A stretch of DNA of 64,000 nt, taken from the NCBI RefSeq assembly GCF_033547155.1, contig NZ_CP137892.1, positions 992,001 to 1,056,000 of the forward strand, written 5' to 3'. A model generated the notes under the pieces. The model was not told the origin of the DNA, ran no database searches, and was given only the letters and a program-made list of their open reading frames with translations. Positions 29,223 through 50,642 of this stretch are shown here, in pieces. The DNA is from Pseudomonas benzenivorans. Its GTDB lineage: Bacteria > Pseudomonadota > Gammaproteobacteria > Pseudomonadales > Pseudomonadaceae. Position 1 is the stretch's first letter, and the number at the start of each line of letters is the position of its first letter. The translations under genes and the position numbers were made by a program.

Positions 29223-30386
29223 CTAGAGCGGCAAGCCGGCCTTGACCCGGTACTGGTTGCGTACCGGATTGGCGTACTGCAGCACCAGGTAGGGCTGCTG
29301 CTCGGCCGGGCAGGCGGCCAGCCGCTGCTGCCACTGCGCCTGGGCGGCGGCCAGCTCCTCGGCCGGGAACAGCTGGGCGGCGTCGGGTACCTGCAGCTCG
29401 GGATCGCGTTCGCTCCACATGGCATAGGCCAGGTAATGCACCGGGAACAGGCGATAGCCGCCGAGTATCTGCTTGTCCATCTCGGCGGCCAGCTGCTTGC
29501 TGTCCTCCAGGCCGCGGCTCAGCGGCTCGCCGAAGTGCACGTGCACGCGCCCCTTGTAGCCGGTGATACCCAGGGCGATGCTCTGGTCGTCCTCACCGGG
29601 GGCCTTGTCGTAGCGACCGGTGCTGGCGCGCACGAACAGTTCGCGGGCCTTGGCCTGGTCGCAGGGGTCGTATTCGTAGCTGATCGACACCGGAGTCAGC
29701 TTGAGCGAGGCGATGACCTCGGCGAAGGCCTCGTCCTTGCGGCTCATGTGGAACATCTTGAGGATCGCCGAATCGGTGCGGTCGTCGCCGTCCTTGGCGC
29801 GCCCCTCGGCTTGGGCGATCCAGACCGACTCGCCGTCCTGGCGGATCGAGTGATTGATGTAGGCCGACAGCAGCTGGTAGGCGGCGAGTTTCTCGCGGCG
29901 GCCGCTGAGCGAGCGGTGCACGATGAAGCTCTTGTTCAGGCGCATCAGGTCGCTGACGAAGGGCTTCTGTAGCAGGTTGTCGCCGATGGCGATGCGCGGT
30001 GTCGGCAGGCCGGCGTGATACACCGCATAGTTGACGAAGGCCGGGTCCATGACGATATCGCGGTGGTTGGCCAGGAACAGGTAGGCGCTGCCCGGCTTGA
30101 GCCGCTCGACGCCGGAGTAGGTGACGCCGTCGGTGGCGCGCTCGATGGTGCGGTCGACGTAGTGTTCGATCTTGTCCTGCAGCGCCCGCACCGAGGCGAC
30201 CGGGCGGAATTCACGGCGCAGCCGATAGGCTATAAGGGGTTTGAGCAGCCAGCCCAGGGAGTCGGCCAGGCGCGGAAAGCGGAACTGGGTGAGGATGTCG
30301 AGGAACGCCTCGTCGGCCAGCAGGCGTGCCAGTACGGCAGGGACTTCGGCGTCGGCGTAGGGTCGGATGGCATCGAATTCGCCCAT
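29223..30386 (-). CDS. PlsC-type 1-acylglycerol-phosphate acyltransferase family protein
   Basis: 387 residues. The acyltransferase HX4D motif is NHRDIVMD; substrate-pocket stretches YLFLANHRD and AQAEGRAKDG follow (the usual FPEG-like motif is diverged to AEGR). No clear transmembrane anchor at the N-terminus, and the protein is longer than ordinary PlsC (about 240 residues), with extra helical N- and C-terminal parts. Pseudomonas carries this family as a separate conserved acyltransferase. Two adjacent ATG codons occur (30389, 30386); the second has better spacing from AAGAGAG. Lipid substrate unknown. Confidence 0.82.
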   Translation of the reverse strand: MGEFDAIRPYADAEVPAVLARLLADEAFLDILTQFRFPRLADSLGWLLKPLIAYRLRREFRPVASVRALQDKIEHYVDRTIERATDGVTYSGVERLKPGSAYLFLANHRDIVMDPAFVNYAVYHAGLPTPRIAIGDNLLQKPFVSDLMRLNKSFIVHRSLSGRREKLAAYQLLSAYINHSIRQDGESVWIAQAEGRAKDGDDRTDSAILKMFHMSRKDEAFAEVIASLKLTPVSISYEYDPCDQAKARELFVRASTGRYDKAPGEDDQSIALGITGYKGRVHVHFGEPLSRGLEDSKQLAAEMDKQILGGYRLFPVHYLAYAMWSERDPELQVPDAAQLFPAEELAAAQAQWQQRLAACPAEQQPYLVLQYANPVRNQYRVKAGLPL

Positions 30387-30501
30387 CATGCTCTCTTGTC
30401 GTAGTTCGGCTGCGGTTAACAGGCCTGTTGTGGGGGAGTGCCCGGTATTCGGGGCCAGCAATAGACCGGCGATTATACGCGCAAGTCACACGGAGACCGC
30501 G

Positions 30502-33598: not shown

Positions 33599-34042
33599 TC
33601 AGGGCAGGGCCTTCTCCGCGTAGGGGCGGGCATCCAGGCCGAGCTGGGCGCGGAAGCTTTCCATGTCGAACATGGTGCAGATCTCCTGGACCTCGTTGGC
33701 GGGCGTCAAGGTCCAGAAGGCCATGGCCGAGATGCTCAGCACCTTGTCGCTGGGGGGGTAGCCCAGGGCCGGCTGCTCGATGGTGCCGATCAGGGTGCTC
33801 CAGGTGACCACCTTGTTGCCCTCGGCGACGCACTCCTCGACCACCACCTCCAGGTCCGGCATGGCGCGGCGGATTTCCCGCACCAGCTGGGCGAAAGACG
33901 GGCTGTTCAGCGGCCGCCCGGCGAAGGAGCTCTTGTACAGGAAGTCCTGGCTGTGCAGCTGCTCGACCAGGGCCAGGTGGCCCTTGTTCCAGGACAGGTC
34001 GATATGCCGACGAACCAGTTTTTTACGCTCTTCCAATGACAT
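33599..34042 (-). CDS. SnoaL-like ester cyclase family protein
   Basis: 147 residues, one NTF2-like cone fold (PF07366 type): SFAQLVREIRRAMPDLEVVVEE and NKVVTWSTLIGTI are typical. ATG 34042 has GGAGGG at good spacing. Standalone gene. Function unknown; SnoaL relatives bind hydrophobic ligands. Compare the second NTF2-fold protein at 40405. Confidence 0.85.
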   Translation of the reverse strand: MSLEERKKLVRRHIDLSWNKGHLALVEQLHSQDFLYKSSFAGRPLNSPSFAQLVREIRRAMPDLEVVVEECVAEGNKVVTWSTLIGTIEQPALGYPPSDKVLSISAMAFWTLTPANEVQEICTMFDMESFRAQLGLDARPYAEKALP

Positions 34043-34151
34043 GACGCCCTCCATGACGGCCAACGAGACTGAGCAAGATCTTGCGCAGGATATCAGCAGT
34101 CGTTCGGCTGGGGTATTGGCACCAACTGCTGCCCAGGGCCGTGGGCCAGCA

Positions 34152-37099: not shown

Positions 37100-37729
37100 A
37101 TGTACTGGGCTGAATTTCTCACTGTGGCGCTGATCCATCTGCTGGCCGTGGCCAGCCCCGGCCCCGACTTCGCCATTGTCGTGCGCGAAAGCGTGGCCTA
37201 TGGACGGCGCGCCGGCATCTTCACCGCGCTGGGCGTGGGCAGCGGCATCTTCGTGCACGTGGCCTATTCGTTGCTCGGCATCGGTTTGATCGTGTCGCAG
37301 TCGATCGTGCTGTTCAACGCGCTGAAGTGGGCGGCGGCGGCTTACCTGCTGTACATCGGCATTCGCGCGCTCCGGGCCAAGGCCAGCGCTCCGGCCGGCG
37401 CCGAGCCAGGGGCGGGAGCGAGCGGGCGGACGGCTCGCGCGGCCTTCGTCACCGGCTTCGTCACCAATGGCTTGAACCCCAAGGCCACGCTGTTCTTCCT
37501 GTCCCTGTTCACCGTGGTGATCGACCCGCATACCCCGCTGATCGTGCAGGCCGGCTATGGCATCTACCTGGCGGCGGCCACGGCGCTGTGGTTCTGCCTG
37601 GTGTCGCTGCTGTTCAGCCAGGCGCGGGTGCGCGCCGGGTTCGCCCGGCTCGGCCATTGGTTCGACCGCCTGACCGGCGCGGTGCTGGTGGGGCTGGGGG
37701 TGAAGCTGGCGTTCAGCGAGATGCGCTGA
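37100..37729 (+). CDS. LysE family amino-acid exporter
   Basis: 209 residues, six hydrophobic segments. N-terminal LysE motif: SPGPDFAIVVRESVAYGRRAG. Members export basic amino acids, threonine, or homoserine lactones. It stands divergent to hprA and is adjacent to the acyl-ligase end of the next cluster, but has its own promoter region. Its last codons lie inside a long inverted repeat, listed separately. Confidence 0.88.
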   Translation: MYWAEFLTVALIHLLAVASPGPDFAIVVRESVAYGRRAGIFTALGVGSGIFVHVAYSLLGIGLIVSQSIVLFNALKWAAAAYLLYIGIRALRAKASAPAGAEPGAGASGRTARAAFVTGFVTNGLNPKATLFFLSLFTVVIDPHTPLIVQAGYGIYLAAATALWFCLVSLLFSQARVRAGFARLGHWFDRLTGAVLVGLGVKLAFSEMR

Positions 37730-37739
37730 ACGCCAGCTT
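37703..37739. terminator. Inverted repeat spanning the lysE-like stop codon
   Basis: 16-bp perfect arms AAGCTGGCGTTCAGCG and CGCTGAACGCCAGCTT, 5-base loop; the TGA stop (37727-37729) is within the right arm. Short T-run only, so terminator strength is uncertain. Confidence 0.6.
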
Positions 37740-37750
37740 GGGGGCTCCTC

Positions 37751-39580
37751 TCAGTAGCGGTGCTGACCTGCACCTATGGCCTGGAATAGCTCCGCGTCCA
37801 CCAGGCGGTAGCCGCTGGTGCCGGGTAGCCAGGCATAAATCGGTTCGCCGTTGCTTTGCCCGGGGTCGAAGGCCTGTTGTTTGAGGGCCTTCTTCTGGTA
37901 CTTGAAGGTCCCGGTGGTTTCCATGTCCGGTCGCAGGCGAATGAACAGCGGTACGGCATAGTGCGGCAGCTTGCCCTGGGCGAAGCGCAGCAGGTCGTCC
38001 AGGTCCAGGGGTTGATCGGCATCGGCCAGGGTCAGCGCGGCCATGCCGGCGCGCCCGTTGGTGTTGGGGACCTCGACACCGTAGACCACTGCCTCGGCGA
38101 TCCGCGGGTGCTGGAGCAGCAGGTTCTCCACCTCGGTGGTCGACACGTTCTCGCCCTTCCAGCGGAAGGTGTCGCCCAGGCGATCGACGAACTGGGCATG
38201 GCCCCAGCCGATGTCGCGCAGCATGTCGCCGGTGTTGAAGTAGCGATCGCCTTTCTCGAACACGTCCTGCAGGATGACCTGGCGCGTCTTCTCAGGGTCG
38301 GTGTAGCCGTCCAGCGGGGCCTTGTCGTCGACCTTCGCCAGTAGCAAGCCCTGGCCGCCCTTGGCTACCCGTTTGAGGAAGCCATGGCTGTCGCGCACCG
38401 GCTCGCCTTTCTCCTGATCGTATTCGACCAGGGCCCAGGACATCAGGGAAAATCCTATGGTGTTGTCGAAGTTGAGCACGTTGCTGAAGCCGATGTTGCC
38501 TTCGCTGGCGGCATAGAACTCGCAGACATGGCCGATGCCGAAGCGCGCCTTGAATGGGGTACCGACGCCTGGGCGCAGGCCGTTGCCGACCATCTTCACC
38601 ACCGGGTTGTCCGCGTCGTCCGGGCGTGGCGGCTGATCCAGCAGGTAGCGACAGAGTTCGCCGACATAGCCGATGGTGGTGGCGCGGAACTTGCGCACAT
38701 CCACCCAGAACGCGCTGGCGCTGAACTTGCGGCGGATGGCCAGGGCGCCGGCGCCGGCCACGGCCGAGCCCCAGCAGACGCACAGACCCGTACCGTGGTA
38801 GAGCGGCAGGGTGCAGTAGAGAACGTCCTGGGGGCGCATATCCAAGGCGATGATGCCGAAGCCGGCATGGGTCTTCATCCAGCGCCCATGCTTGAAGATG
38901 CCGGCCTTGGGCAGGCCGGTGGTGCCCGAAGTGTAGATGTAGAAGCAGGGGTCGTCGGCGAATACCTGCTGGGTGCTGGCCGGATTGTGGACGGGCTGGT
39001 TGCGGGACTCCTCCAGCAGGCTCAGGTAGCCGCCGGGAGCCGGCGTCTGGGCACCGTGTTCGGCGACGAAGAAGGTCCGGTCGGGCGGCAGAGCGATCTG
39101 CTCGCGCACCTCGGCATAGGCTCCCAGCAGCTCCTCGCCGACCACAACCGCGGCTGGGTTGACCAGCTTGAGGCTGTGGGCCAGCACGTCGCGGGTCTGC
39201 GAGGTGTTGAGCATGGCGCATATGGCGCCGAGCTTGGCCGCTCCCAGCACGGTGAACAGCAACTCCGGACGGTTCTCGAGGAAGATGCCGATCACGTCGC
39301 CTTTGCCGATGCCCTGCAGGGCCAGATAGTGGGCGATGCGATTGGCCCGTTGGTTCATCTCCAGATAGCTGAAGCGGCTGTTCTCGTAGAGCAGGGCGGT
39401 GCCGTCTGGGTTGCGTTGGGTGGCCTGCTCGACGCTCCAGCCCAGGCCGCAGGCCTGGGTCGGCGAGGACACCTTGGAGAGCCTCAGGCCCCTGATAGCC
39501 CGGGGCAGACTCTGCAGGATGCGGGGGGCCTTTCTGGCCATCTTGCCCCAGGTGATCATGTCGCTGCTTGTCGTGTGCAT
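37751..39580 (-). CDS. Long-chain acyl-CoA synthetase, FadD6/VLACS type
   Basis: 609 residues, ANL superfamily. P-loop YTSGTTGLPK, later AASEGNIGF, and GDTFRWKGENVSTTEVE, the motif that marks the very-long-chain / FATP-type synthetases. Activates long-chain fatty acids to acyl-CoA. ATG 39580 has AAGGG. Last gene of a minus-strand cluster with a diiron-oxidase-like protein (98 bases upstream), an NTF2-fold protein and an acyltransferase, so it likely supplies acyl-CoA to that pathway. Confidence 0.88.
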   Translation of the reverse strand: MHTTSSDMITWGKMARKAPRILQSLPRAIRGLRLSKVSSPTQACGLGWSVEQATQRNPDGTALLYENSRFSYLEMNQRANRIAHYLALQGIGKGDVIGIFLENRPELLFTVLGAAKLGAICAMLNTSQTRDVLAHSLKLVNPAAVVVGEELLGAYAEVREQIALPPDRTFFVAEHGAQTPAPGGYLSLLEESRNQPVHNPASTQQVFADDPCFYIYTSGTTGLPKAGIFKHGRWMKTHAGFGIIALDMRPQDVLYCTLPLYHGTGLCVCWGSAVAGAGALAIRRKFSASAFWVDVRKFRATTIGYVGELCRYLLDQPPRPDDADNPVVKMVGNGLRPGVGTPFKARFGIGHVCEFYAASEGNIGFSNVLNFDNTIGFSLMSWALVEYDQEKGEPVRDSHGFLKRVAKGGQGLLLAKVDDKAPLDGYTDPEKTRQVILQDVFEKGDRYFNTGDMLRDIGWGHAQFVDRLGDTFRWKGENVSTTEVENLLLQHPRIAEAVVYGVEVPNTNGRAGMAALTLADADQPLDLDDLLRFAQGKLPHYAVPLFIRLRPDMETTGTFKYQKKALKQQAFDPGQSNGEPIYAWLPGTSGYRLVDAELFQAIGAGQHRY

Positions 39581-39678
39581 GGCAGGTCCCTTGTATCGAC
39601 TTCTATGGGGGAGTCATGGCGGTATGCGGGAGGTGCCCGGCGCAGCCCTTTCCCAGGGACCGCGCCGTGGCGCTCGGT

Positions 39679-40332
39679 CTAGAACTCGTTGGCGACCGAT
39701 TCGAGAATCTGTCCGGTGAGGAATAGGGTGGTGCGCGCCACCTGCTTCACCGCTTCCTTGTCCTCGTCGCTCTCGACCCAGCGGATGATGGCGTTGTTGA
39801 CGTCTTCGGCATGTTTGGCATCGATGACCGAGTGGGCGATGAAGAACGTCAGTTGCTTGTCGCTGAGGCCCAGCCGGTTCTTGCACACGTCCAGCAGCGG
39901 AGCGAGGTGTTCATAGGAGTCCTCGGCCCAGAAACTGTAGCCCAGCCGAGGAATGACTCCGCCGCGGATGGCCAGGCTGAACAGGTATCCGTTGAGGGCT
40001 TCGGTGGCGGGCAGCGGTTTGCGCTCGAAAACACTGGGATCTACGCCGATTGAGGCGAGGTCGTTGACTACCATGTTCTCGTGCCCCAGCTCTTCCAGGG
40101 CATGCTTCATGGCGAAGCGCAGCAGGCCGACCCGCTTGTGGTCTTCTCCGAAGGTGGCGGCGGCCTGGTTGATGGCGTTGTTCTTGGTGTAGTGAAACAC
40201 CTCAACCATGGCGCGAATATAGAGTTCGCGTTGCAGTTCGGAGTTTTGCACCAGGCGGAAAAAACGCCCGGCCTTAATTTTGGCCCATTCCGCGTCACAT
40301 ACATCCTTGAGTTCGTCTATGAAGTTGCTCAT
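39679..40332 (-). CDS. Haem-oxygenase-fold diiron-oxidase-like protein (HDO / TenA-like)
   Basis: 217 residues, almost wholly helical. Metal-ligand candidates: E44 (AMVEVFHYT), E81-x2-H84 in LEELGHENMV, E137/E141 (WAEDSYEHL) and H167, D171, H174, D177 in HSVIDAKHAED. The ExxH pair and the late D/H cluster match what is known of the haem-oxygenase-like diiron family (UndA, CADD, SznF central domain), whose members do oxidative chemistry on fatty acids, amino acids or guanidines. UndA itself is about 260 residues. No haem-binding histidine motif is seen. Exact reaction unknown; a fatty-acyl substrate is suggested by the neighbours. Confidence 0.78.
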   Translation of the reverse strand: MSNFIDELKDVCDAEWAKIKAGRFFRLVQNSELQRELYIRAMVEVFHYTKNNAINQAAATFGEDHKRVGLLRFAMKHALEELGHENMVVNDLASIGVDPSVFERKPLPATEALNGYLFSLAIRGGVIPRLGYSFWAEDSYEHLAPLLDVCKNRLGLSDKQLTFFIAHSVIDAKHAEDVNNAIIRWVESDEDKEAVKQVARTTLFLTGQILESVANEF

Positions 40333-40404
40333 GTCATCTCCCTGATTAGATATCGATGCCCCTGGGGGCTGTAAGTCGCAGTTGGTTTTTTGAGTCGGGC
40401 CTCC

Positions 40405-40803
40405 TTAGAGTCTGAGCAAGGGTTTGATCATGTACATAAACCGGGAAAACAGACCGATGCCCTCGATGGTGTCCCAGTGTTCGAGTAGAACGCCATTCTC
40501 GACTCGGTAGATGTCGATGACCTTGTAGTTGACCTTGAATAGCTTGTTGGCGGCCCAATGCGTGGCGTAGAGGAATACATGATCGCCCTCGGCGCAGACT
40601 TTCTCGATCTGTGTGCCCGACTTGGGGAACATCTTGAAGTACTGTTGGAAATACCCCTTGAAGCCGTCTCGGGTCGGAGGAATAAATACATTGTTGTGTT
40701 GTTTGTAATCCTCGCAGATCAACTCGTCGGCGGCGGACAGGTCGCGTTCGGCGAAAACACGCTGATAGAACTCGATGACGGTCTGTTTATTGTGTTCGTG
40801 CAT
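40405..40803 (-). CDS. NTF2-like / SnoaL-like protein
   Basis: 132 residues. Opens MHEHNKQTVIEFYQRVFAER and continues ICEDYKQHNNVF, then WAANKLFKVNYKVIDIYRV and EHWDTIEGIG, a typical SnoaL_2 fold (PF12680) of a small-molecule isomerase, cyclase or binding protein. The frame extends upstream to 40860 but the ATG at 40803 follows the acyltransferase stop by 19 bases, so coupling is likely. Visibly lower GC than the window average. Confidence 0.82.
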   Translation of the reverse strand: MHEHNKQTVIEFYQRVFAERDLSAADELICEDYKQHNNVFIPPTRDGFKGYFQQYFKMFPKSGTQIEKVCAEGDHVFLYATHWAANKLFKVNYKVIDIYRVENGVLLEHWDTIEGIGLFSRFMYMIKPLLRL

Positions 40804-40822
40804 GGTTAAACCTGCTGTAGGA

Positions 40823-41578
40823 TCAGGAGAAGGCGGTGGTCGCAAAAGGAGAGCCTTCAATGAGGGCTATGAGACTGTCCATGTCGGTGAGGTCCTGGGG
40901 GTGGCAGTCGAGCTTGAAGAAGTCGATGACGGCACTCAGCAGGTTGCCCTTGAACAGGGCGTAGTGGTGGTCGCCACGCTCCTTGATTTGAAACAGCAGG
41001 GCTTCGTGGTCGAAGCTGAATTGACTGAAACGCTCCTGCAGGCGCGGCTTCACATAGGTGATGTAGTTGCGGCAGGGCGTGTTCAGAGCAACCAACGAGC
41101 CAGCGGTGCAGGCAAGGGCATCGACTACCCGCTTGACCGGAGCGGTTTTGTCGACAATCAGCCTGGAGAACTCGACATGGTCATGAGCGTAATCGGTACC
41201 GAGGAAGTCGTTTAGGGCTGCGGCGTCGATATAACGGCCGGCTTCATGGGGGAATGGCGTGACACGTTGGGTGCCAATGATCTGATCGTCGTAGTAGCAG
41301 GCGAAAACATATGAGCGGTTGTCGATCTCGTCCACTGCACGGGTATTGCCAAACAGCAGTTCATAGTACTTCTTGCGCTGGGCATAGAGCCGCAGACGTG
41401 CCTGGGAAAGTACTTCCAGTTCGGCCGGTGTGACCAATTGGCGAACTCTGATGTGCGACGACTCGCAGCGGGCCTGGAGGATGGCGTCGAAAAAACTGTA
41501 GGTGCGTTCACGCTGCAGTGGGTCGGCGATCAGGTGAGGCAGGGCGCCACAGTCATTGAGGGCAGATTGTTGCTGCAT
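40823..41578 (-). CDS. LuxI/FeeM-like GNAT N-acyltransferase
   Basis: 251 residues from ATG 41578. GNAT-like fold: an N-terminal helix, strand YVFACYYDDQIIGTQRVTPF (about 90-109), then the LuxI-like motif VEFSRLIVD (135-143), where a Glu-x-Ser-Arg is typical of acyl-homoserine-lactone synthases and of N-acyl-amino-acid synthases such as FeeM. So it probably joins an acyl chain from acyl-ACP or acyl-CoA to an amine. AAGGA precedes the start within a small hairpin. The frame is open to 41851, but the upstream part is not family-like. First gene of the cluster; exact product unknown. Confidence 0.65.
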   Translation of the reverse strand: MQQQSALNDCGALPHLIADPLQRERTYSFFDAILQARCESSHIRVRQLVTPAELEVLSQARLRLYAQRKKYYELLFGNTRAVDEIDNRSYVFACYYDDQIIGTQRVTPFPHEAGRYIDAAALNDFLGTDYAHDHVEFSRLIVDKTAPVKRVVDALACTAGSLVALNTPCRNYITYVKPRLQERFSQFSFDHEALLFQIKERGDHHYALFKGNLLSAVIDFFKLDCHPQDLTDMDSLIALIEGSPFATTAFS

Positions 41579-41580
41579 AG

Positions 41581-41597
41581 AACAGATTCCTTCTGTT
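41581..41597 (-). promoter_or_regulatory. Hairpin containing the acyltransferase ribosome site
   Basis: AACAGA-AGGAA-TCTGTT on the minus strand, with the Shine-Dalgarno AGGAA in the loop, three bases before the ATG. It could hide or present the ribosome site. Confidence 0.45.
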
Positions 41598-41848
41598 AAT
41601 ACAACTCCATTGGCGATAAGGCTCAGGCGCCACATGACCATAAAGCGGTTGGCCTGGCATCTGTGATGCTTATCAAGTGAGGCGACGGTCGGGGTTATCA
41701 ACTGCCTGGGCAGTTGGCGATGACCGATCGAGAATAGTCGGGAGGCGAGAGCGGGGGCGTAGTCGTGTCGTAGGCTTGAATAATCCGTTTCATGGCAGGC
41801 CATCCTGGCTGTTGTGTTTGTGCATGAGTGCGCGTTAAGTGTGACGGG

Positions 41849-41869
41849 CACTTGAGTTGGCTTTAGTCA
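41849..41869 (-). repeat. TGACTA-9-CAAGTG element
   Basis: On the minus strand TGACTA, nine bases, CAAGTG, 271 bases upstream of the acyltransferase start. Related to the two elements upstream of the DUF1302 gene. Confidence 0.4.
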
Positions 41870-42345
41870 ATATCAAAGGAAACTTATTGGAGTGCGATAG
41901 GAGTTTTGTAGTTTTTTGTAATCCGTTGGCCTGTCGCCGGCTTCGGCGAATGGGTCGTTAGGCGCTCGCTGCTTCTTGGACGGTCCGCACCCTTCACCGT
42001 CACTCGATCGCCTTCTCCGTGGCTTCGTCCTCCCCACGAGCACTGCAGCCATGTCATGTTTGTCACAGCCGTCATGCGGGAAAACGATCAGGGGCAGGAT
42101 GCGTCGCGCCCCGCCCGGGCAAACCTCCCTACGAGGGGCAGACAGCGACGATGAGTTGTGCGTGCTTAGGCCCTGCCAGCATGGAACTCGAAGCCGCGCT
42201 CACATGGCAGGTCCTCGTCGTGCGGCCATCGAGGCTATTGTGGCCATGCGCAAATTCATTCTTTTGACTGATTTGTACGTCAGGCTGTCGCCCTAGAGTC
42301 ATATTCATCCGAAACCGATACGACCGCAGACTAAGGTGCCTTCCC

Positions 42346-44028
42346 ATGTTGCAAACCCGCATCATTTCGCCCGCGACCAACGCCTATCAATATCCCCTGC
42401 TGATCAAGCGTCTGCTGCTGTCCGGGGGACGCTACGAGAAGACCCGGGAGATCGTCTACCGCGACAGCGTGCGCTACAGCTACGCGACCTTCAACGAGCG
42501 GGTCGCGCGCCTGGCCAACGTGCTGAGCGACGCCGGGGTGAAGGCCGGCGATACCGTCGCGGTGATGGACTGGGACAGCCATCGTTATCTGGAGTGCATG
42601 TTCGCCATCCCCATGCTCGGTGCGGTGTTGCACACCATCAACATCCGCCTCTCGCCGGAGCAGATCCTCTACACCATGAATCATGCCGAGGACCGCTTCG
42701 TACTGGTCAACAGCGAGTTCGTGCCGCTCTACAATGGCATCGCCAGCCAGCTGACCACGGTCGAGAAGACCCTGCTGCTGACCGACGCGGAGGAGAAAAC
42801 CGCCGACTTGCCAGGACTGGTGGGGGAGTACGAGCAATTGCTGGCGGCGGCCGGCCCGAGCTACGAGTTCGCCGATTTCGACGAGAACTCGGTGGCTACT
42901 ACCTTCTACACCACCGGTACCACCGGCAACCCCAAGGGTGTGTACTTCACGCATCGGCAACTGGTGCTGCACACCCTGTCCATGGCCACCATTTTGGGTA
43001 GCCTGGACAGCATTCGCCTGATGGGGACCGCTGACGTCTATATGCCTATCACGCCGATGTTCCACGTGCACGCCTGGGGCGTGCCCTACGTGGCCACCAT
43101 GCTGGGGGTAAAACAGGTCTATCCGGGGCGCTACGAGCCGGAGATGCTGTGCCGCCTGATCAAGGACGAGCAGGTCAGCTTTTCCCACTGCGTGCCGACC
43201 ATCCTGCAAATGCTGCTCAACACCCCAAGCGCCCAAGGGCACGATTTCGGGGGATTGAAGATGATCATCGGCGGCAGTGCGCTGAACCGTACCCTGTATG
43301 ACGCCGCCAAGGCCCGTGGTATCCAGCTGACCGCGGCCTATGGCATGTCGGAAACCTGTCCGCTGGTTTCCTGTGCCTACATCAATGAGGAGTTGCTGGC
43401 TGGTAGCGAGGATGAGCGTATCACCTACCGGATCAAGGCCGGGGTGCCGGTGCCGCTGGTCGATGCGGCCATCATGAGTGCGGATGGCACGTTGCTGCCG
43501 GCCGATGGAGAAGCCCAGGGCGAGTTGGTGCTGCGTTCGCCCTGGCTGACCCAGGGTTACTTCCGCGAGGCGGAAAAGGGCGAGGAGCTGTGGGAGCATG
43601 GCTGGCTGCATACTGGCGATGTCGCCACGCTCGATGGCATGGGATTCGTCGATATTCGCGACCGTATCAAGGATGTGATCAAGACCGGCGGAGAGTGGCT
43701 CTCCTCGCTGGAGCTGGAAGACCTGATCAGCCGCCATTCGGCCGTGCGTGAGGTGGCGGTGGTGGGCGTTCCCGATCCGCAATGGGGCGAGCGGCCCTTT
43801 GCCCTGCTGGTGCTGGCCGAGGGGCAGGCGCTGGATGCCAAGGGGCTGAAGGAACACCTCAAGCCCTATGTCGAGCAAGGGCACATCAACAAGTGGGCAA
43901 TACCCACGCAGATCGCCCTTGTTACCGAAATTCCCAAGACCAGCGTCGGCAAGCTGGACAAGAAACGCATTCGCCTGGATATCGCCCGGTGGCAGGCGGC
44001 CGGAAGCGAATTTCTTTCCACCCTCTAG
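42346..44028 (+). CDS. Medium/long-chain fatty acyl-CoA ligase (AlkK-like)
   Basis: 560 residues, ANL superfamily. P-loop YTTGTTGNPKG, then PMFHVHAWGVPY, AYGMSETCPL, HTGDVA and DVIKTGGEWLSSLELED; the order and the HAWG/GGEW motifs match AlkK-type medium-chain acyl-CoA ligases. Corresponds to PA3924 in PAO1, as I remember. Start of a four-gene plus-strand block (acyl ligase, DUF1302, DUF1329, LuxR) in PAO1-like order. ATG 42346 has AAGGTG upstream. Confidence 0.93.
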   Translation: MLQTRIISPATNAYQYPLLIKRLLLSGGRYEKTREIVYRDSVRYSYATFNERVARLANVLSDAGVKAGDTVAVMDWDSHRYLECMFAIPMLGAVLHTINIRLSPEQILYTMNHAEDRFVLVNSEFVPLYNGIASQLTTVEKTLLLTDAEEKTADLPGLVGEYEQLLAAAGPSYEFADFDENSVATTFYTTGTTGNPKGVYFTHRQLVLHTLSMATILGSLDSIRLMGTADVYMPITPMFHVHAWGVPYVATMLGVKQVYPGRYEPEMLCRLIKDEQVSFSHCVPTILQMLLNTPSAQGHDFGGLKMIIGGSALNRTLYDAAKARGIQLTAAYGMSETCPLVSCAYINEELLAGSEDERITYRIKAGVPVPLVDAAIMSADGTLLPADGEAQGELVLRSPWLTQGYFREAEKGEELWEHGWLHTGDVATLDGMGFVDIRDRIKDVIKTGGEWLSSLELEDLISRHSAVREVAVVGVPDPQWGERPFALLVLAEGQALDAKGLKEHLKPYVEQGHINKWAIPTQIALVTEIPKTSVGKLDKKRIRLDIARWQAAGSEFLSTL

Positions 44029-44054
44029 GTCCCGCTATTGCTACTTCGGAAAAG

Positions 44055-44076
44055 TGACTACACAGTCAAACAAGCG
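44055..44076 (+). repeat. TGACTA-10-CAAGCG element, copy 1
   Basis: TGACTACACAGTCA (a TGAC...GTCA dyad) followed by AA and CAAGCG. Copy 2 lies 72 bases downstream. Possible operator of the operon. Confidence 0.5.
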
Positions 44077-44080
44077 TTTG
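44067..44080 (+). promoter_or_regulatory. PsrA-like box
   Basis: CAAAC-AAGC-GTTTG fits the PsrA fatty-acid repressor consensus (C/G)AAAC-N2-4-GTTTG. It overlaps copy 1 of the TGACTA element, so the match may be partly coincidental. Confidence 0.45.
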
Positions 44081-44126
44081 GCTTGCTAATTGCTGTTTTC
44101 AGTCCATTCTTGGCTCTTCGCAAAGC

Positions 44127-44146
44127 TGACTATTCGGTCACAAGCG
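44127..44146 (+). repeat. TGACTA-8-CAAGCG element, copy 2
   Basis: TGACTATTCGGTCA then CAAGCG. It shares TGACTA-N4-GTCA and CAAGCG with copy 1. Confidence 0.5.
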
Positions 44147-44211
44147 GCGAGCCAGAGTGCCAGGGGCTGCAAATCACACTTTCGAGGGATCAAGCAGTAC
44201 GACCCGCTGGC

Positions 44212-44217
44212 TATAGT
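44212..44217 (+). promoter_or_regulatory. Candidate -10 of the DUF1302 operon
   Basis: TATAGT, 40 bases before the ATG, without a good -35, as expected for an activator-dependent promoter. Both TGACTA elements lie 66 bases or more upstream. Confidence 0.4.
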
Positions 44218-44256
44218 CCGCACCATCCATAACAAAAAACACATGGAGTAGCGTCG

Positions 44257-46218
44257 ATGACAAAGACCCAACCGTTCTGGCGCCTGGCAAAGCTGCCGCT
44301 GGCCGTCAGCCTCGCATCCACCCTCGCCGCACCGGCATTCGGCGTTACCTTTAATATCGGCGAGATCGAAGGTCAGTTCGATTCGTCGTTGTCCGTGGGC
44401 GCCAGCTGGTCGGTGCGTGGTGCAGATAAGGACCTGATCGGTAGAAACAACGGTGGCGATGGCCTTTCGCAGACCTCGGATGATTCGCACCTGAACTTCA
44501 AGCGTGGCGAAACCTTCTCGAAGATCTTCAAGGGTATCCACGATTTGGAGCTGAAGTACGGCGATACGGGTGCCTTCATTCGCGGCAAGTATTGGTATGA
44601 CTTCGAGCTGAAGGACGAGCATCGTCTGTTCAAGGACATCGACGACAGCAATCGTAAAGAGGCTGCCCAGGCATCTGGTGCACAGATCCTCGATGCCTTC
44701 GTTTATCACAACTATGACATCGCCGATCAACCTGGTTCGGTACGCCTGGGTAAGCAGGTGGTCAGCTGGGGTGAAAGCACCTTTATCCAGAACTCCATCA
44801 ACTCCATCAACCCGATCGATGCCTCGGCGTTTCGCCGTCCTGGCGCGGAGATCAAGGAAGGCTTGATTCCGGTCAACATGTTCTACGTGTCCCAGAGCCT
44901 GACCGATAGCCTGTCGATGGAGGCGTTCTACCAGCTTGAGTGGGACCAGTCCGTCGCAGATAACTGCGGTACCTTCTTCGCACAGCCGGATGTGATTGCG
45001 GATGGCTGTGATCGTAACCTGGCCGTATTGAGCCCACAGCTTGGTGCTCTATCTGGGTTTGCCGCCGCACAGGGGTTTGGTTATCAGACTACCTCCGAAG
45101 GTGTGATAGTTCCTCGGGGCGGTGATCGTGATGCGCGTGATAGTGGGCAATGGGGTACGGCGTTCCGCTATTTCTCTGAACAGCTTGACACCGAATTCGG
45201 TGCCTATTTCATGAACTATCACAGCCGTACGCCGGTGTTCAGCGGGCGGGCTGCCCCAGCGGCAGCATTTACTGCCGCCCAGGCAGCAGTGGGTGGTTTT
45301 GGCGCTGCACAGGTGGCAGCTCAGTGCGCAACGATGGGGGGGGCTTGTGCCAACCCTGTAGTTCTCGCGGCAGTGCGAGCAGGTGTTCTGGGCAGTACGG
45401 CATTTCAGCAAGCCGCTACCGGGCTGGCGTCTGCGACAGTTGCCGGTAACAGCCAGTATTTCATCGAGTATCCCGAGGATATTCGCCTCTACGGTCTGAG
45501 TTTCTCTACTACCCTGCCTACTGGCACGGCCTGGAGTGGCGAAATTAGCTATCGGCCAAATGCACCGGTGCAGATCAATACCACCGACATTTTGTTTGGC
45601 GGTTTGACCCCCCTGGACTCAACTGTTTCCCCTATTCAGGCCACGCCTGGCACTGACACTCCCGGCTACCGCCGCAAGGAAATCACGCAGTTCCAGACCA
45701 CCTTTACCCACTTCTTCGACCAAGTGATGGGAGCCTCGCGTTTAACCCTGGTGGGTGAGATTGGGGTCACGCACGTGGGCGGTCTGGAAAACAGCAGTGA
45801 GTTGCGCTATGGCCGGGACCCAGTATTCGGCCCGGGCCCTTTGGCCGGCAATCGCTGCCAGACGCTCAATGCCAGTACGTTGGGCAGTGCTACCGCCGAG
45901 AACGTCAGCAAATACTGTGAGGACGATGGTTTCGTCACCAGTACCTCCTGGGGTTACCGCGCTCGCGCCATTTGGGATTACAACGATGCATTCGCGGGCA
46001 TCAACCTGAAACCCAGCATCTCCTGGTCCCATGACGTCGACGGCTATGGCCCCAACGGTGTGTTCAACGAAGGCAACAAGGCGGTGAGCCTGGGCCTGGA
46101 CGCCGAATACCAGAACACTTACACCGCGGGCCTGTCCTATACCGACTTCTTCGGCGGCAAGTACAACACGTCGATCGACCGTGACTTCGTCGCGCTCAGC
46201 TTCGGTATGAACTTCTAA
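44257..46218 (+). CDS. DUF1302 family outer-membrane protein
   Basis: 653 residues. Signal peptide MTKTQPFWRLAKLPLAVSLA and cut near APAFG; the mature part starts FNIGEIEGQFDSSLSVGAS and ends in RDFVALSFGMNF, a C-terminal aromatic beta-strand typical of outer-membrane barrels. PF06980 proteins occur with DUF1329 proteins and fatty-acid or sterol genes; their role is unproven, but they may be channels or lipid-transfer components. It lies 13 bases after the preceding sequence block and 24 bases before the DUF1329 gene, so the pair is one operon. Confidence 0.9.
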   Translation: MTKTQPFWRLAKLPLAVSLASTLAAPAFGVTFNIGEIEGQFDSSLSVGASWSVRGADKDLIGRNNGGDGLSQTSDDSHLNFKRGETFSKIFKGIHDLELKYGDTGAFIRGKYWYDFELKDEHRLFKDIDDSNRKEAAQASGAQILDAFVYHNYDIADQPGSVRLGKQVVSWGESTFIQNSINSINPIDASAFRRPGAEIKEGLIPVNMFYVSQSLTDSLSMEAFYQLEWDQSVADNCGTFFAQPDVIADGCDRNLAVLSPQLGALSGFAAAQGFGYQTTSEGVIVPRGGDRDARDSGQWGTAFRYFSEQLDTEFGAYFMNYHSRTPVFSGRAAPAAAFTAAQAAVGGFGAAQVAAQCATMGGACANPVVLAAVRAGVLGSTAFQQAATGLASATVAGNSQYFIEYPEDIRLYGLSFSTTLPTGTAWSGEISYRPNAPVQINTTDILFGGLTPLDSTVSPIQATPGTDTPGYRRKEITQFQTTFTHFFDQVMGASRLTLVGEIGVTHVGGLENSSELRYGRDPVFGPGPLAGNRCQTLNASTLGSATAENVSKYCEDDGFVTSTSWGYRARAIWDYNDAFAGINLKPSISWSHDVDGYGPNGVFNEGNKAVSLGLDAEYQNTYTAGLSYTDFFGGKYNTSIDRDFVALSFGMNF

Positions 46219-46242
46219 CGGTCAGGAAATTTGAGGAAGACT

Positions 46243-47616
46243 ATGTACATGAAAACAACAAAAGGTCTGTTGCAAACCGGCGCCCTGACCCTGTCGCTGC
46301 TCGCCAGCAGTGTGATGGCGGCCGTCTCGCCGGAAGAAGCCGCCCAGCTGGGCGCCAGCCTGACGCCGATCGGCGCAGAGATGGCGGGCAATGCCGATGG
46401 TTCGATCCCGGCCTGGACCGGCGGTCTGCCGAGCAATGCCGGCACCGTCGATGATCGCGGTTTCCTGTCGAATCCCTTCGCCAACGAGCAGCCGCTGTTC
46501 ACCATCACCGCGCAGAACGTGGATCAGTACAAAGACAAGCTCACCCCCGGTCAGCTGGCGATGTTCAAGCGCTATCCCGACAGCTACAAGATGCCGGTAT
46601 ATCCGACCCATCGCAGCGCCACCCTGCCGGACGCAGTCCTGGCCGCGGCCAAGGCCAACGCGGTCAATACCAAGTTGGTAGAAGGCGGCAACGGCCTGGA
46701 GAACTTCGCCACGGCCAACCCCTTCCCGATCCCCAAGAACGGTCTGGAAGTGATCTGGAACCACATCACCCGCTATCGCGGTGGCAGCGCCAAGCGCCTG
46801 GTGACCCAGGCGACCCCGCAGGCCAACGGCTCCTACAGCTTGGTGTATTTCGAGGACGAGTTCACCTTCCGCGATGCCCTGAAGGATGCCGGCAGCAGCA
46901 AGGCGGACAACATCCTGTTCTACTTCAAGCAGCGGGTGACCGCACCGTCGCGTCTGGCGGGCAACGTGCTGTTGGTGCACGAGACCCTGAACCAAGTCAA
47001 GGAGCCGCGTCTGGCGTGGCTGTACAACGCCGGCCAGCGCCGCGTGCGCCGGGCGCCGCAGGTGTCTTACGACGGTCCGGGCACCGCAGCCGATGGCCTG
47101 CGCACCTCGGACAACTTCGACCTGTACAACGGCGCGCCGGATCGTTACGACTGGACGCTCAACGGCAAGAAGGAAGTCTACATCGCCTACAACACCTATG
47201 GCCTGGACTCGCCGAAGCTCAAGTACGAGCAGATCATCAAGCCCGGCCATATCAACCAGGAGCTGAGCCGTTACGAGCTGCACCGCGTCTGGCATGTGAC
47301 CGCGACCCTGAAGTCGGGCGAGCGGCATATCTATGCCAAGCGCGACTTCTTCATCGACGAGGACACCTGGCAGGCCGCTGCCATCGACCACTACGACGGT
47401 CGCGGTACCCTGTGGCGTGTGGCCGAGGCGCATGCCCAGTACTACTACGACAAGAAAGTGCCGTGGTACACCCTGGAGGCCCTGTATGACCTGCAGTCCG
47501 GGCGCTACCTGGCGCTGGGCATGAAGAACGAGGAGAAGCAGTCCTATCAGTTCGATATCGGCTCCAAGGAAAGCGACTACACCCCGGCGGCCTTGCGTCA
47601 GGCCGGCGTGCGTTAA
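46243..47616 (+). CDS. DUF1329 family periplasmic protein
   Basis: 457 residues from ATG 46243 (GAGGAAG five bases before). Signal peptide MYMKTTKGLLQTGALTLSLL up to VMAAVSPEEAAQLG. DUF1329 proteins are LolA/LolB-like soluble periplasmic proteins that accompany DUF1302 and RND-type or lipid genes; a role as a hydrophobic-molecule chaperone between membranes is suspected. Ends SYQFDIGSKESDYTPAALRQ as in the family. Follows DUF1302 by 24 bases, so same operon. Confidence 0.9.
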   Translation: MYMKTTKGLLQTGALTLSLLASSVMAAVSPEEAAQLGASLTPIGAEMAGNADGSIPAWTGGLPSNAGTVDDRGFLSNPFANEQPLFTITAQNVDQYKDKLTPGQLAMFKRYPDSYKMPVYPTHRSATLPDAVLAAAKANAVNTKLVEGGNGLENFATANPFPIPKNGLEVIWNHITRYRGGSAKRLVTQATPQANGSYSLVYFEDEFTFRDALKDAGSSKADNILFYFKQRVTAPSRLAGNVLLVHETLNQVKEPRLAWLYNAGQRRVRRAPQVSYDGPGTAADGLRTSDNFDLYNGAPDRYDWTLNGKKEVYIAYNTYGLDSPKLKYEQIIKPGHINQELSRYELHRVWHVTATLKSGERHIYAKRDFFIDEDTWQAAAIDHYDGRGTLWRVAEAHAQYYYDKKVPWYTLEALYDLQSGRYLALGMKNEEKQSYQFDIGSKESDYTPAALRQAGVR

Positions 47617-47645
47617 GCACAGCAGCCTGACCGCGTAGTGCCGGT

Positions 47646-47680
47646 CTCGAGCCAGCAGGACGATGTCCGGCTGGCTCGAG
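47646..47680. other. Hairpin after the DUF1329 gene
   Basis: CTCGAGCCAGC / GCTGGCTCGAG, 11-bp perfect arms with a 13-base loop, immediately before the stronger terminator. Confidence 0.6.
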
Positions 47681-47694
47681 GTGCCGAGACATTG

Positions 47695-47727
47695 AATGCC
47701 CGTATCCTTGGATACGGGCATTTTTAT
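47695..47727 (+). terminator. Terminator of the DUF1302-DUF1329 operon
   Basis: 13-bp perfect stem AATGCCCGTATCC / GGATACGGGCATT followed by TTTATTT. Confidence 0.95.
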
Positions 47728-47906
47728 TTGGGATGTAGGCGGGGCTGGCCATTCGGCGAGGGGTTGGCAAGTGCGGACGTGCCGGGTGAGACCCGACGCA
47801 GCTATTGCAAAGAATTGTTAAGGCGGCCGGGGCACACTTCAAATGTGCGGCCCGAGGGGCTAGGCTGCTGGTCAAACCACAGACCTACTGCGCCAAGAAC
47901 CGGGTA

Positions 47907-50642
47907 ATGACCGAGCTGTCCAGTTCACATCGATTCGTCAGTCTGAGTCCGCAGAGCACCGATGGGCATTTCTTCCGTCCTCCGCTGCCACCGGGGCATG
48001 TCCTGCGCCCGCGCCTGTGCGAGCGGCTGGCGAGCGGTCTGTCCGGCCGCCTGATACTGGTCAGCGCGCCGGCGGGCTTCGGCAAGAGCTCACTGGCCAT
48101 CGAGTTTTGCGAACGGCTGCCGCCGCAGTGGCAGAGCCTCTGGTTCGGCCTGAGCCGCCGCGACAGCGATCCCGGGCGCTTTCTCGAGCGACTGTTGGCT
48201 GGGCTGCAACAGTTTTTCCCGGGGCTGGGGGACGATGCGCTGGGGTTGTTGCGACTGCGCCAGAGGCATCAGCCCTTCGCCTTCGAGGAATGGCTGGATG
48301 GTCTGCTCGACGAGCTGACGCTACGCTTGAAACCGGACAGTCCGGTGCTACTGGTGCTGGACGATTACCATCTGGCCCAGGGGGCGGTGCTCGATCGCTG
48401 CCTACAGTTCTTCCTCAACCACTTGCCGGCTGGCCTGCTCTTGCTGGTGACCAGCCGCCAGCGTCCGGATTGGCATCTGGCCCGCCTGCGCCTGTCGAGG
48501 CAATTGCTCGAGTTGCAGGAACAGGATCTGCGCCTGACAGAGGAGGAGACCGGCGAGCTGTTGTCTAGGCACGGTGCCACCTTGAGCGAGGAGGCGCTGG
48601 CCGATTTGCTGCAGCACAGCGAAGGTTGGGTGGCCGGGCTGCGCCTGTGGTTGCTCGCCGCCGCCGAGGCGGTTGTCGACGGCGAGATGACCAGGCCTCA
48701 CGGCGCCGAAGGGCTGATCCGCGAGTATCTACTGGAAGAGGTGATCGAGCGGCAGCCGCCGGAAGTGCAGGCCTTTCTCTATGACACCGCCTGCCAGGAG
48801 CGCTTCTGTGCCGAGCTGTGCGATGCCGTGCGCGAGGCCCATGACAGCGCCGCCATTCTCGAGCATCTGCAGGCGCATCAGGTGTTTCTGGTGCCGCTGG
48901 ATGAGCAAGGCCGCTGGTTTCGTTATCACCATCTGTTTTCCGACCTGCTCCGCGCTCGACCAGCGGCCGCCTTGCGTCCCGCCCCGACCAGTGCACACCT
49001 GCGTGCCTGCCGCTGGTTCAGCGGCCAAGGGCTGTTGGACGAGGCGATCGAGCAGGCGCTGCGGGCCGGGCAGCCGGATGTGGCCGCCAACCTGGTGCAG
49101 AACCTGTCCGAGGAGCAACTGCTGGCCGAACAAAACGTGGCCACCTTGTTGCGTTGGAAGATGGACTTGCCGGACAGCCTGCTGGCCAGCACGCCACGCC
49201 TGATCGTCCTGTACAGCTGGGCCCTGGCCCTGGCCTGTCAGCTGGATGCGGCCGAGGAGTTAGTAGGGCAGATGAGCCGCTTCCTTCCCGCTCCCTCGGC
49301 AGTCCAGCAGCAGAGCCTGCTGGCCCAGTGGCAAGCCCTCTGCGGGGTGATCGCCCGCGGTCGTGGCGAAAGCCTGAGCGCGCAACGCCACTGTACCGAA
49401 GCACTGGCGGGGTTGCCGATGGAGCGCTATGGCCAGCGGCTGATGTGCCTGTCGACCCTGGCTAATCTGGCCATCGTCCAGGGCGATCTGTGGCGTGCCC
49501 GGGGCCTCAATCGCGAGGCTTTGGAGCTGGCGCAGCGGGTGGGCAACCCCCTGTTCGAAGCGCTGGCGCACTATGACCGCGCGCGCGTACTGCAGGCCCG
49601 GGGCGAAGTGCAGCGGGCCCTCGACGAGGTGCGCCAAGGCCTGGAGCGTTTGCGCGGGCTGCCGCACCAGCGTTTGTACGCGTTGCGCGCACGCCTGACC
49701 CTGTATGAGGGTTATCTGCTGAGCCTGCGTCTGCAGCCGCAGTTGGCGCGTCAACGGTTAACGGCGGGGATCGCCGAGGCGCGTGCCTGCCGTGACGTCA
49801 GCCTGCTCATCGGCCAGTGCGTGCTGGCCGGCCTGGAGGGGCGCGAAGGCGCTCTGGCCGAAGCGTTCGCTCGACTCGCCGAGGCCGAGCGGCTCATGCA
49901 TGTCTGGGATGTGCCGCCTATCTACTACCTGGCGATGATCACCCTGGCCAAGTGCGAGTTGTGGCTGCGCCAAGGCCAGTTCGAAGTGGCGGATGCCTGG
50001 CTGGTGCGCCTGGCCGAGGCTTACAACGGGGAGCAGGCCGCCGCGGCGCCGGAGTTCCACCCGCAACTGCCGCTGTACATCGAACTCCACCAGGCGGTGC
50101 TGGAACGGCAGCAAGGTGAACGGAGTAAGGCCGAGAGGCGTCTGCGTGCTCTGGTGCAACGGGCACAGGCTATGGGGGGGGAGTTGCTGGCAGTGATCGC
50201 CCGGGTGCAGCTGGTTCTGTTGCTGCGCGCCAGTGGCCAGGAGCGTGAGGCCCGGCAACAGCTGAGTGACGCCTTGCAAGCGGCCCTTGGAGGCGCTCTG
50301 TCACCCTTCCAGGATCTGTTGAAGGCACACCCGGATTGGGCTCGGGAGCAACTGCTGGCGCAACCCGAGGGTTCCCAGCGCGAGGCGCTGTTGGCCGAAC
50401 TGCCCACGGCGCCGGCTGTGGCGAGCGTTGAGCCGGACATGATGGTGGGCAGTTTGAGCGGCCGTGAACTGGCGGTGTTGAAGCTGATTGCCCAAGGCTA
50501 TTCGAACCAGCAGATCAGCGAGAGTCTGTTCATCTCCCTGCATACGGTGAAAACCCATGCCCGCCATATCAACGGCAAGCTTGGCGTCGAGCGTCGTACC
50601 CAAGCGGTGGCGCGGGCCAAGAGCCTCGGCCTGCTGACTTGA
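47907..50642 (+). CDS. MalT-like LuxR-family transcriptional regulator
   Basis: 911 residues. STAND-type ATPase N-terminus with Walker A SAPAGFGKSSL and a Walker B LLVLDDYH; a long helical TPR-like middle; C-terminal LuxR helix-turn-helix LSGRELAVLKLIAQGYSNQQ followed by LHTVKTHARHINGKLGVERR. This is the MalT-type large ATP-dependent LuxR activator. Start ATG 47907 is chosen; the frame extends 34 codons upstream without similarity, and the ribosome site is weak (CGGGTA). Corresponds to PA3921 by position. Likely activator of the adjacent fatty-acid operon, with an unknown ligand. Confidence 0.92.
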   Translation: MTELSSSHRFVSLSPQSTDGHFFRPPLPPGHVLRPRLCERLASGLSGRLILVSAPAGFGKSSLAIEFCERLPPQWQSLWFGLSRRDSDPGRFLERLLAGLQQFFPGLGDDALGLLRLRQRHQPFAFEEWLDGLLDELTLRLKPDSPVLLVLDDYHLAQGAVLDRCLQFFLNHLPAGLLLLVTSRQRPDWHLARLRLSRQLLELQEQDLRLTEEETGELLSRHGATLSEEALADLLQHSEGWVAGLRLWLLAAAEAVVDGEMTRPHGAEGLIREYLLEEVIERQPPEVQAFLYDTACQERFCAELCDAVREAHDSAAILEHLQAHQVFLVPLDEQGRWFRYHHLFSDLLRARPAAALRPAPTSAHLRACRWFSGQGLLDEAIEQALRAGQPDVAANLVQNLSEEQLLAEQNVATLLRWKMDLPDSLLASTPRLIVLYSWALALACQLDAAEELVGQMSRFLPAPSAVQQQSLLAQWQALCGVIARGRGESLSAQRHCTEALAGLPMERYGQRLMCLSTLANLAIVQGDLWRARGLNREALELAQRVGNPLFEALAHYDRARVLQARGEVQRALDEVRQGLERLRGLPHQRLYALRARLTLYEGYLLSLRLQPQLARQRLTAGIAEARACRDVSLLIGQCVLAGLEGREGALAEAFARLAEAERLMHVWDVPPIYYLAMITLAKCELWLRQGQFEVADAWLVRLAEAYNGEQAAAAPEFHPQLPLYIELHQAVLERQQGERSKAERRLRALVQRAQAMGGELLAVIARVQLVLLLRASGQEREARQQLSDALQAALGGALSPFQDLLKAHPDWAREQLLAQPEGSQREALLAELPTAPAVASVEPDMMVGSLSGRELAVLKLIAQGYSNQQISESLFISLHTVKTHARHINGKLGVERRTQAVARAKSLGLLT

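Follow-up and report, generated by a model that had tools for sequence, protein, structure and literature searches.

A four-gene acyltransferase and diiron-oxidase cluster of Pseudomonas benzenivorans, a candidate source of oxidised N-acyl amines

Attachment of an acyl chain to an amine, followed by oxidation of the product, is described for the tyz / oxz acyl-oxazolone pathway. There the FeeM-fold enzyme TyzA N-acylates amino acids, tyrosine among them, with lauroyl-CoA, TyzC, a flavin oxidase, uses O2 to desaturate the resulting product, and TyzB closes the ring (PMC10404671). Among haem-oxygenase-like diiron oxidases (HDOs), which follow a rule of three histidine and three carboxylate ligands, about a dozen have a validated function out of more than 10,000 predicted, and the substrates of the characterised members are mostly fatty acids or amino acids (PMC13108848). 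Here we analyse a 64,000-nucleotide stretch of Pseudomonas benzenivorans (NZ_CP137892.1, positions 992,001 to 1,056,000), referred to as the window, in which four adjacent minus-strand genes encode a GNAT-type N-acyltransferase (GNAT), a SnoaL-like protein, an HDO and a long-chain acyl-CoA synthetase. Each of these enzyme families is already known.

We propose, at slightly better than even odds (about 0.55), that the four proteins act jointly: the synthetase would form an acyl-CoA, the GNAT would make an N-acyl amine from it, and the HDO and the SnoaL-like protein would oxidise and rearrange that product.

Gene content and recurrence of the cluster

The cluster runs from the GNAT gene (251 amino acids, 40823..41578) through those of the SnoaL-like NTF2-fold protein (132 amino acids, 40405..40803) and the HDO (217 amino acids, 39679..40332) to that of the synthetase (609 amino acids, 37751..39580). 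An earlier note, made from the DNA letters, had described four minus-strand genes with short gaps and had assigned each to its family, including diiron-type ligands for the HDO; order, coordinates and families were all confirmed, and the gaps are 19, 72 and 98 bp. For the GNAT, the start of the 251-residue frame was favoured over that of a longer frame because most homologues have 244-258 residues. Its closest named homologue, from Pseudomonas sp. MBLB4123, is 97% identical.

Co-occurrence of the four genes, a check that the earlier note had named beforehand, held for GNAT, SnoaL-like protein and HDO and was looser for the synthetase. Scanning genome contigs with a pattern from the GNAT alignment, which can miss relatives, gave 17 other loci, 16 from Pseudomonas and one from a metagenome-assembled genome. 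The first three genes are contiguous in all 17, and the synthetase gene comes next in 15; it is missing in L017 (P. fuscovaginae), and in L018, a short metagenomic contig that ends within the HDO gene, it lies upstream on the opposite strand. The genes that flank the cluster in the window are shared by L002 and L003 only, not by the other loci. P. donghuensis HYS is among the environmental strains with the cluster.

The same picture emerged from 199 genomes of the genus. Full-length GNAT, SnoaL-like protein (69-100% identity) and HDO occur in the same five genomes, side by side and never apart, where this HDO type is defined by a score above 370 bits (the next score is 358). Seven other GNAT matches are weak and partial, and 15 weaker SnoaL-like matches (30-39%) sit elsewhere. 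The synthetase gene is directly downstream in all five cluster genomes, in at least two genomic settings. Across 18 loci with this arrangement (layout A), HDO and GNAT distances are correlated with r 0.97, a value reached in none of 2000 permutations, as expected of genes inherited together.

Oxidase loci in other layouts

Searched for on its own, the HDO was found in 67 of the 199 genus genomes, 47 of 293 genomes of the order (E<=1e-10), 19 of 369 genomes of the class and 34 plasmid records. We fetched 41 of 71 places from the genus (36 counted here, the other five being layout A), 20 of 48 from the order, 17 of 22 from the class and 5 of the 34 plasmid records, which gave 78 loci outside layout A once L099, a duplicate of L175, was left uncounted. 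All open reading frames in these loci were scanned with profiles of the three partners. A FeeM/autoinducer-synthase/T_hemolysin-type gene is present in 74 of the 78 by profile, or 75 with L097 (PF21926 by Pfam), mostly near the HDO gene. An AMP-forming ligase lies within the fetched stretch in 71, compared with a chance expectation of about 0.05 AMP-binding matches per 12 kb (19 in a 4.5-Mb genome). Ligase and HDO even share one reading frame at four loci (L141, L142, L143 and L153), and in L096 (7589-11280) a GH3-family protein and a ketosynthase III-type protein adjoin the HDO. GH3 enzymes adenylate acids and couple these to amino acids, and the L096 arrangement is possibly a one-enzyme replacement of ligase and acyltransferase. 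The variety of ligases, the fused frames and the GH3 protein of L096 together suggest that this HDO is associated with the activation of acids and the formation of amides.

The trio of acyltransferase, ligase and HDO recurs in at least four layouts, an addition to the earlier note, which had not seen it. Layout A, that of the window, is GNAT, SnoaL-like protein, HDO and ligase of the fatty acid transport protein (FATP) type. Layout B (L080-L085, L129 and L133; Pfam on L083) consists of an AMP-forming ligase, GNAT, HDO, flavodoxin/FMN reductase, EamA transporter and hydrolase, and layout C (L086-L095; Pfam on L089) of GNAT, HDO, DUF3419, a pyridoxal phosphate enzyme and an AMP-forming ligase. 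Layout D (L132 and most of L135-L186) has a T_hemolysin gene (PF12261), an AMP-forming ligase and the HDO, followed in L132 by an SDR gene. Layout B is carried by conjugative plasmids of plant-associated Pseudomonas in L129 (P. syringae pv. actinidiae pM228) and L133 (a P. coronafaciens plasmid), which also have LuxR-family and anthranilate/aminodeoxychorismate synthase genes and whose ligase carries the annotation phenylacetate-CoA ligase family.

Two further loci showed unusual neighbours. Within L085, a partial match to the acyl-homoserine lactone (AHL) synthase family PF00765 (G006:C93:87217-87531) lies about 2.5 kb from the layout-B HDO gene (84088-84741). At L134:6052-10278, genes for DUF3419, HDO, an FMN-binding protein and GNAT stand beside an Asp/Asn beta-hydroxylase-family gene.

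In a tree of the HDOs, layouts A, B and C each form one group (support 97-100) and layout D has support of 82/37; long branches make the placement of the exceptions uncertain. Within every layout, distances between HDOs correlate with those between GNATs (r 0.97, 0.97, 0.87 and 0.83; 0 of 2000 permutations as high in each case). Profile comparison of the GNATs between layouts gave 97% for A-C, 83% for A-B and 61% for C-D, and sequence homology across all layouts was unsupported for B-C (9%) and A-D (0.6%).

Proteins of PF12261, named 'thermostable hemolysin', occur in 97 of the 199 genus genomes, and at nearly every fetched locus a T_hemolysin gene (for example L132:5889-6542) heads a ligase-HDO cluster. 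Twelve T_hemolysin loci came from genomes without a layout-D match by the first HDO profile, and ten of them have an HDO by a layout-D profile; the first profile misses many layout-D HDOs, so counts made with it are too low. L197 and L198 have T_hemolysin and ligase and no HDO, even by the layout-D profile. The family name may mislead about function. Tentatively, and with less confidence than we place in the joint action of the four window proteins, we suggest that Gammaproteobacteria could share a widespread, so far unrecognised module, built from an adenylating enzyme, an acyltransferase of autoinducer-synthase fold and an HDO, that makes oxidised N-acyl amines, several of them signals or antibiotics. 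The window cluster could be one of its four or more layouts, and PF12261 proteins could be its acyltransferases and not haemolysins.

Enzymes, proposed pathway and surroundings

A GNAT fold in the acyltransferase was the second check named beforehand, and the fold was found. The AlphaFold2 model (pLDDT 88.2) has a GNAT fold of the AHL-synthase type, with RpaI, LasI, TofI, FeeM and BjaI as the nearest solved folds and MesI also among the AHL synthases. By Pfam, the protein scores 23.2 bits against PF21926 (FeeM N-acyl amino acid synthase; cut-off 27), and relatives such as P0126, P0128 and P0134 carry PF21926 in the database. Its profile aligns at 87% (E 3.8e-6) with that of 19 PF00765 AHL synthases from the genus, drawn from 20 loci (31 PF00765 matches) after the partial match L237 was omitted. 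We scored nine invariants of active-site type (R, F, W, E, D, D, R, E and R; two more, P and G, were left out of the count). Eight are paired in the GNAT, where R61, Y65, Y71, D83, D86, R105, E136 and R139 align with R, F, W, D, D, R, E and R, six of them identical and Y standing for F and W. All eight are invariant in the 22 rows of alignment A1 (the window protein and 21 of 26 GNAT matches). So are D83, D86, R105, E136, S138 and R139, the counterparts of the EsaI residues rated most important (D45, D48, R68, E97, S99 and R100; PMC5131480). Filing the GNAT in the LuxI family was rejected, PF00765 being unmatched; that family has no match at E<=0.001 across the whole P. benzenivorans genome.

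This likeness to AHL synthases, in nearest folds and in paired invariants, supports an alternative in which the GNAT uses S-adenosylmethionine (SAM) and the cluster makes an oxidised AHL-like signal. We regard it as somewhat unlikely, yet the best placed of the alternatives, and the alignment with 19 AHL synthases raised our estimate. Other layouts add DUF3419 genes in L089, L131, L134 and, by clustering, further layout-C loci, and speD in L131; we take both to be SAM-using families. Layout B on plasmids adjoins a LuxR-family gene, and the window GNAT keeps an E-x-S-R motif where FeeM has E94-V-V-Q97 (PMC9654057). Against a SAM-derived signal, the scanned window neighbours include a single LuxR-family gene, for a MalT-type regulator (47805-50639) at a distance of 6 kb, PF00765 is not matched directly, F and W of the AHL synthases are Y, and the invariant E that precedes their D-x-x-D is A.

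The synthetase, of FATP type, scores 863.8 bits against PRK08279, above the equivalog cut-off of 625; its nearest solved sequence is long-chain fatty acid transport protein 2, and its next-best relative in its own genome has 25% identity. Relatives at 60-68% identity are common outside the cluster, and two of the five cluster genomes hold a second copy. The synthetase could accordingly be a mere neighbour, the true unit being GNAT, SnoaL-like protein and HDO supplied with acyl-ACP (acyl carrier protein) or acyl-CoA by general metabolism. Its absence from L017, its divergent position in L018 and its abundance elsewhere favour such a unit, as does the acyl-ACP dependence of FeeM (PMC9654057). 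We rate this alternative as rather unlikely, next in order after the SAM-derived signal, since the same ligase type is found directly downstream so regularly in layout A and in more than one genomic setting, and since an AMP-forming ligase accompanies the HDO at most of the other loci.

The HDO has the haem-oxygenase helical fold, and its 3-His/3-carboxylate set (E81, H84, E137, H167, D171 and H174) is invariant in the 31 rows of alignment A2 (the window protein and 30 of 120 listed HDO matches, 375 having been found in all) and in 96 of 96 rows of a wider alignment. The HDO is predicted to bind two metals and to oxidise its substrate with O2. The nearest solved relative, 3dde (39%), is a structure without assigned function, and MboA was the second-best match of the HDO profile in the PDB (E 2.7e-5). 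Structural alignments with UndA, BesC, CADD and HrmI gave 12-20% identity. A phmmer match between residues 91-138 and light-harvesting proteins (E 4e-7) was taken as chance, as it was lost with the family alignment profile, and DtpC of Acinetobacter was set aside as the same protein by residue numbers alone (E143, H153 and H232 imply a longer protein).

If the HDO acted first, on a fatty acid or acyl chain as UndA acts on lauric acid, the GNAT would then join the modified acyl group to an amine. This order seems unlikely to us. Identity to UndA is 12% in structural alignment, UndA is absent from PDB sequence searches with the HDO at E<=1, and CtCADD and HrmI equal or exceed it in score. The phenylacetate-CoA ligase annotation on the layout-B plasmids makes a common fatty-chain reaction less likely, and the GH3 protein that adjoins the L096 HDO points to an amide as substrate. 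UndA-type olefin formation was kept as a rival only.

The SnoaL-like protein matches PF07366 with 54.8 bits (cut-off 28.4), and its H36, H82, D97, R100 and E108-H109-W110-D111 are invariant in 18 rows; it may act as a cyclase. At 4 kb from the four genes there is a second SnoaL-like gene (33599-34063; PF07366, 60.2 bits) that has counterparts in both L002 and L003.

In the joint pathway that we favour, the FATP-type ligase would supply long-chain acyl-CoA, by the reaction of acyl-CoA ligases in general, from acid, ATP and CoA. Judged by its fold and residues, the GNAT would transfer the acyl group to the amine of an amino acid or of SAM, and the six-ligand HDO would carry out an O2-dependent oxidation of the N-acyl product. 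By analogy with TyzA and TyzC and with known HDO chemistry, we favour a step that desaturates (or oxidatively decarboxylates) the amino-acid portion of an N-acyl amino acid, and the HDO would then stand in for TyzC. The SnoaL-like protein, in the role of the ring-closing TyzB, would likely complete the product by rearrangement or ring closure. The earlier interpretation as an acyl-metabolite cluster is supported by co-occurrence and by the GNAT fold; what we infer are all of the reactions and their sequence, the identity of the amine, the length of the acyl chain and the part played by the SnoaL-like protein.

Several observations weigh against the joint pathway or its extension to other layouts. 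Synthetase relatives (E<=1e-60) occur in 118 of the 199 genomes, 5 of the 90 synthetase matches with at least 60% identity are within the cluster, and the cluster synthetases do not form one group in a tree of 33; we therefore rejected the synthetase as cluster-specific. The GNAT falls below the FeeM cut-off and does not match PF00765 even at E<=1, and its departures from the AHL-synthase invariants (A for the ninth, Y for F and W) count here as well. The window cluster contains no reductase gene, in contrast to layout B with its flavodoxin/FMN reductase. Being related to one another, the 78 loci do not count as independent cases, and the choice of L132 came after its AMP-binding neighbour was already visible. 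Both partners are missing at L098 and L187, a GNAT is missing at L096, and L097, L130, L131 and L134 have an acyltransferase but no AMP-forming ligase. Finally, the GNATs of the layouts are far apart, and the layout-D T_hemolysin is tied in mainly by position.

It is improbable that the product is a structural or surface-active, ornithine-lipid-like lipoamino acid and not a diffusible signal or antibiotic: the long-chain FATP-type ligase, a PF01553 acyltransferase gene 7 kb away (29226-30461) and one layout-B GNAT with a weak match (21.3 bits, cut-off 22.4) to PF13444, the family of the ornithine-lipid acyltransferase OlsB, speak for it, but a Pfam scan found no O-acylating enzyme among the cluster proteins, and a spread as patchy as 5 in 199 genomes would be unlike that of a structural lipid.

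Upstream of the GNAT start, the presumed promoter region on the minus strand (41579..42345) extends to a divergent acyl-CoA ligase gene (42346-44028). Rfam gave no matches in this region, one sigma-70-like site was found in 37500-42600, the number expected by chance, and scans for terminators and RNA elements were at chance level or empty; candidate promoters, terminators and RNA elements at the cluster were dropped. The divergent block (42346-50639) encodes the acyl-CoA ligase, DUF1302, DUF1329 and the MalT-type LuxR regulator, with counterparts next to the cluster in L002 and L003. A HIT-family gene (L011:6254-6700 by Pfam; eight related loci by clustering) lies directly upstream of GNAT elsewhere and was not seen in the window; an upstream gene that clusters with it is present in 9 of the 14 loci L004-L017. 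The lowest G+C of the window (0.54-0.55 at 40001..42000) spans GNAT, SnoaL-like gene and part of the HDO gene and belongs to a broad dip at about 40-48 kb (0.54-0.62; 0.63-0.72 in the remaining window) that also takes in the divergent neighbours. Acquisition from elsewhere is possible; we do not claim low G+C as proof of transfer, given that the dip reaches beyond the cluster.

Comparison with described systems

Full-text searches of an open-licence library, a scope with subscription journals and preprints outside it, listed no title or abstract opening that describes the gene set or the trio, and within it the earlier view that this is not a named pathway stands. The cluster and the recurring trio suggest a likely unrecognised small-molecule family. 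Tying one HDO branch to N-acylation indicates substrates to try, and should the products of the module be signals, autoinducer-type chemistry would gain an oxidative step. With three to four genes, the module is small enough for rebuilding in laboratory E. coli.

The mangotoxin operon, with MboA and MboB, likewise places an HDO in a small Pseudomonas operon, and the window HDO weakly matches MboA. Mangotoxin, however, is built by ATP-grasp ligases on a peptide (PMC13185094), and no such ligase is among the four window proteins; we rejected it as the parent system despite the second-best PDB match. With the HDO superfamily (UndA, BesC, CADD, HrmI and MboA) the window protein shares the fold and the ligand set, at low identity to the first four and without a close relation to UndA.

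Among acyltransferases, the AHL synthases RpaI, BjaI, LasI, TofI and EsaI resemble the window GNAT in nearest folds and paired active-site-type invariants, and differ from it in the Y residues and in their direct PF00765 match. FeeM (PDB 2G0B) differs in that the window protein is under the family cut-off and has E-F-S-R where FeeM has E-V-V-Q (PMC9654057). The tyz / oxz pathway relies on a flavin oxidase of the nitroreductase family and on a protein of the ThiF family. None of the four cluster proteins matches either family; the window cluster has instead its HDO, its SnoaL-like protein and its ligase. What the two have in common is the overall plan, an N-acyltransferase of AHL-synthase/FeeM fold combined with an oxidase that depends on O2 and with a third enzyme, which closes the ring in tyz / oxz (PMC10404671) and may do so here.

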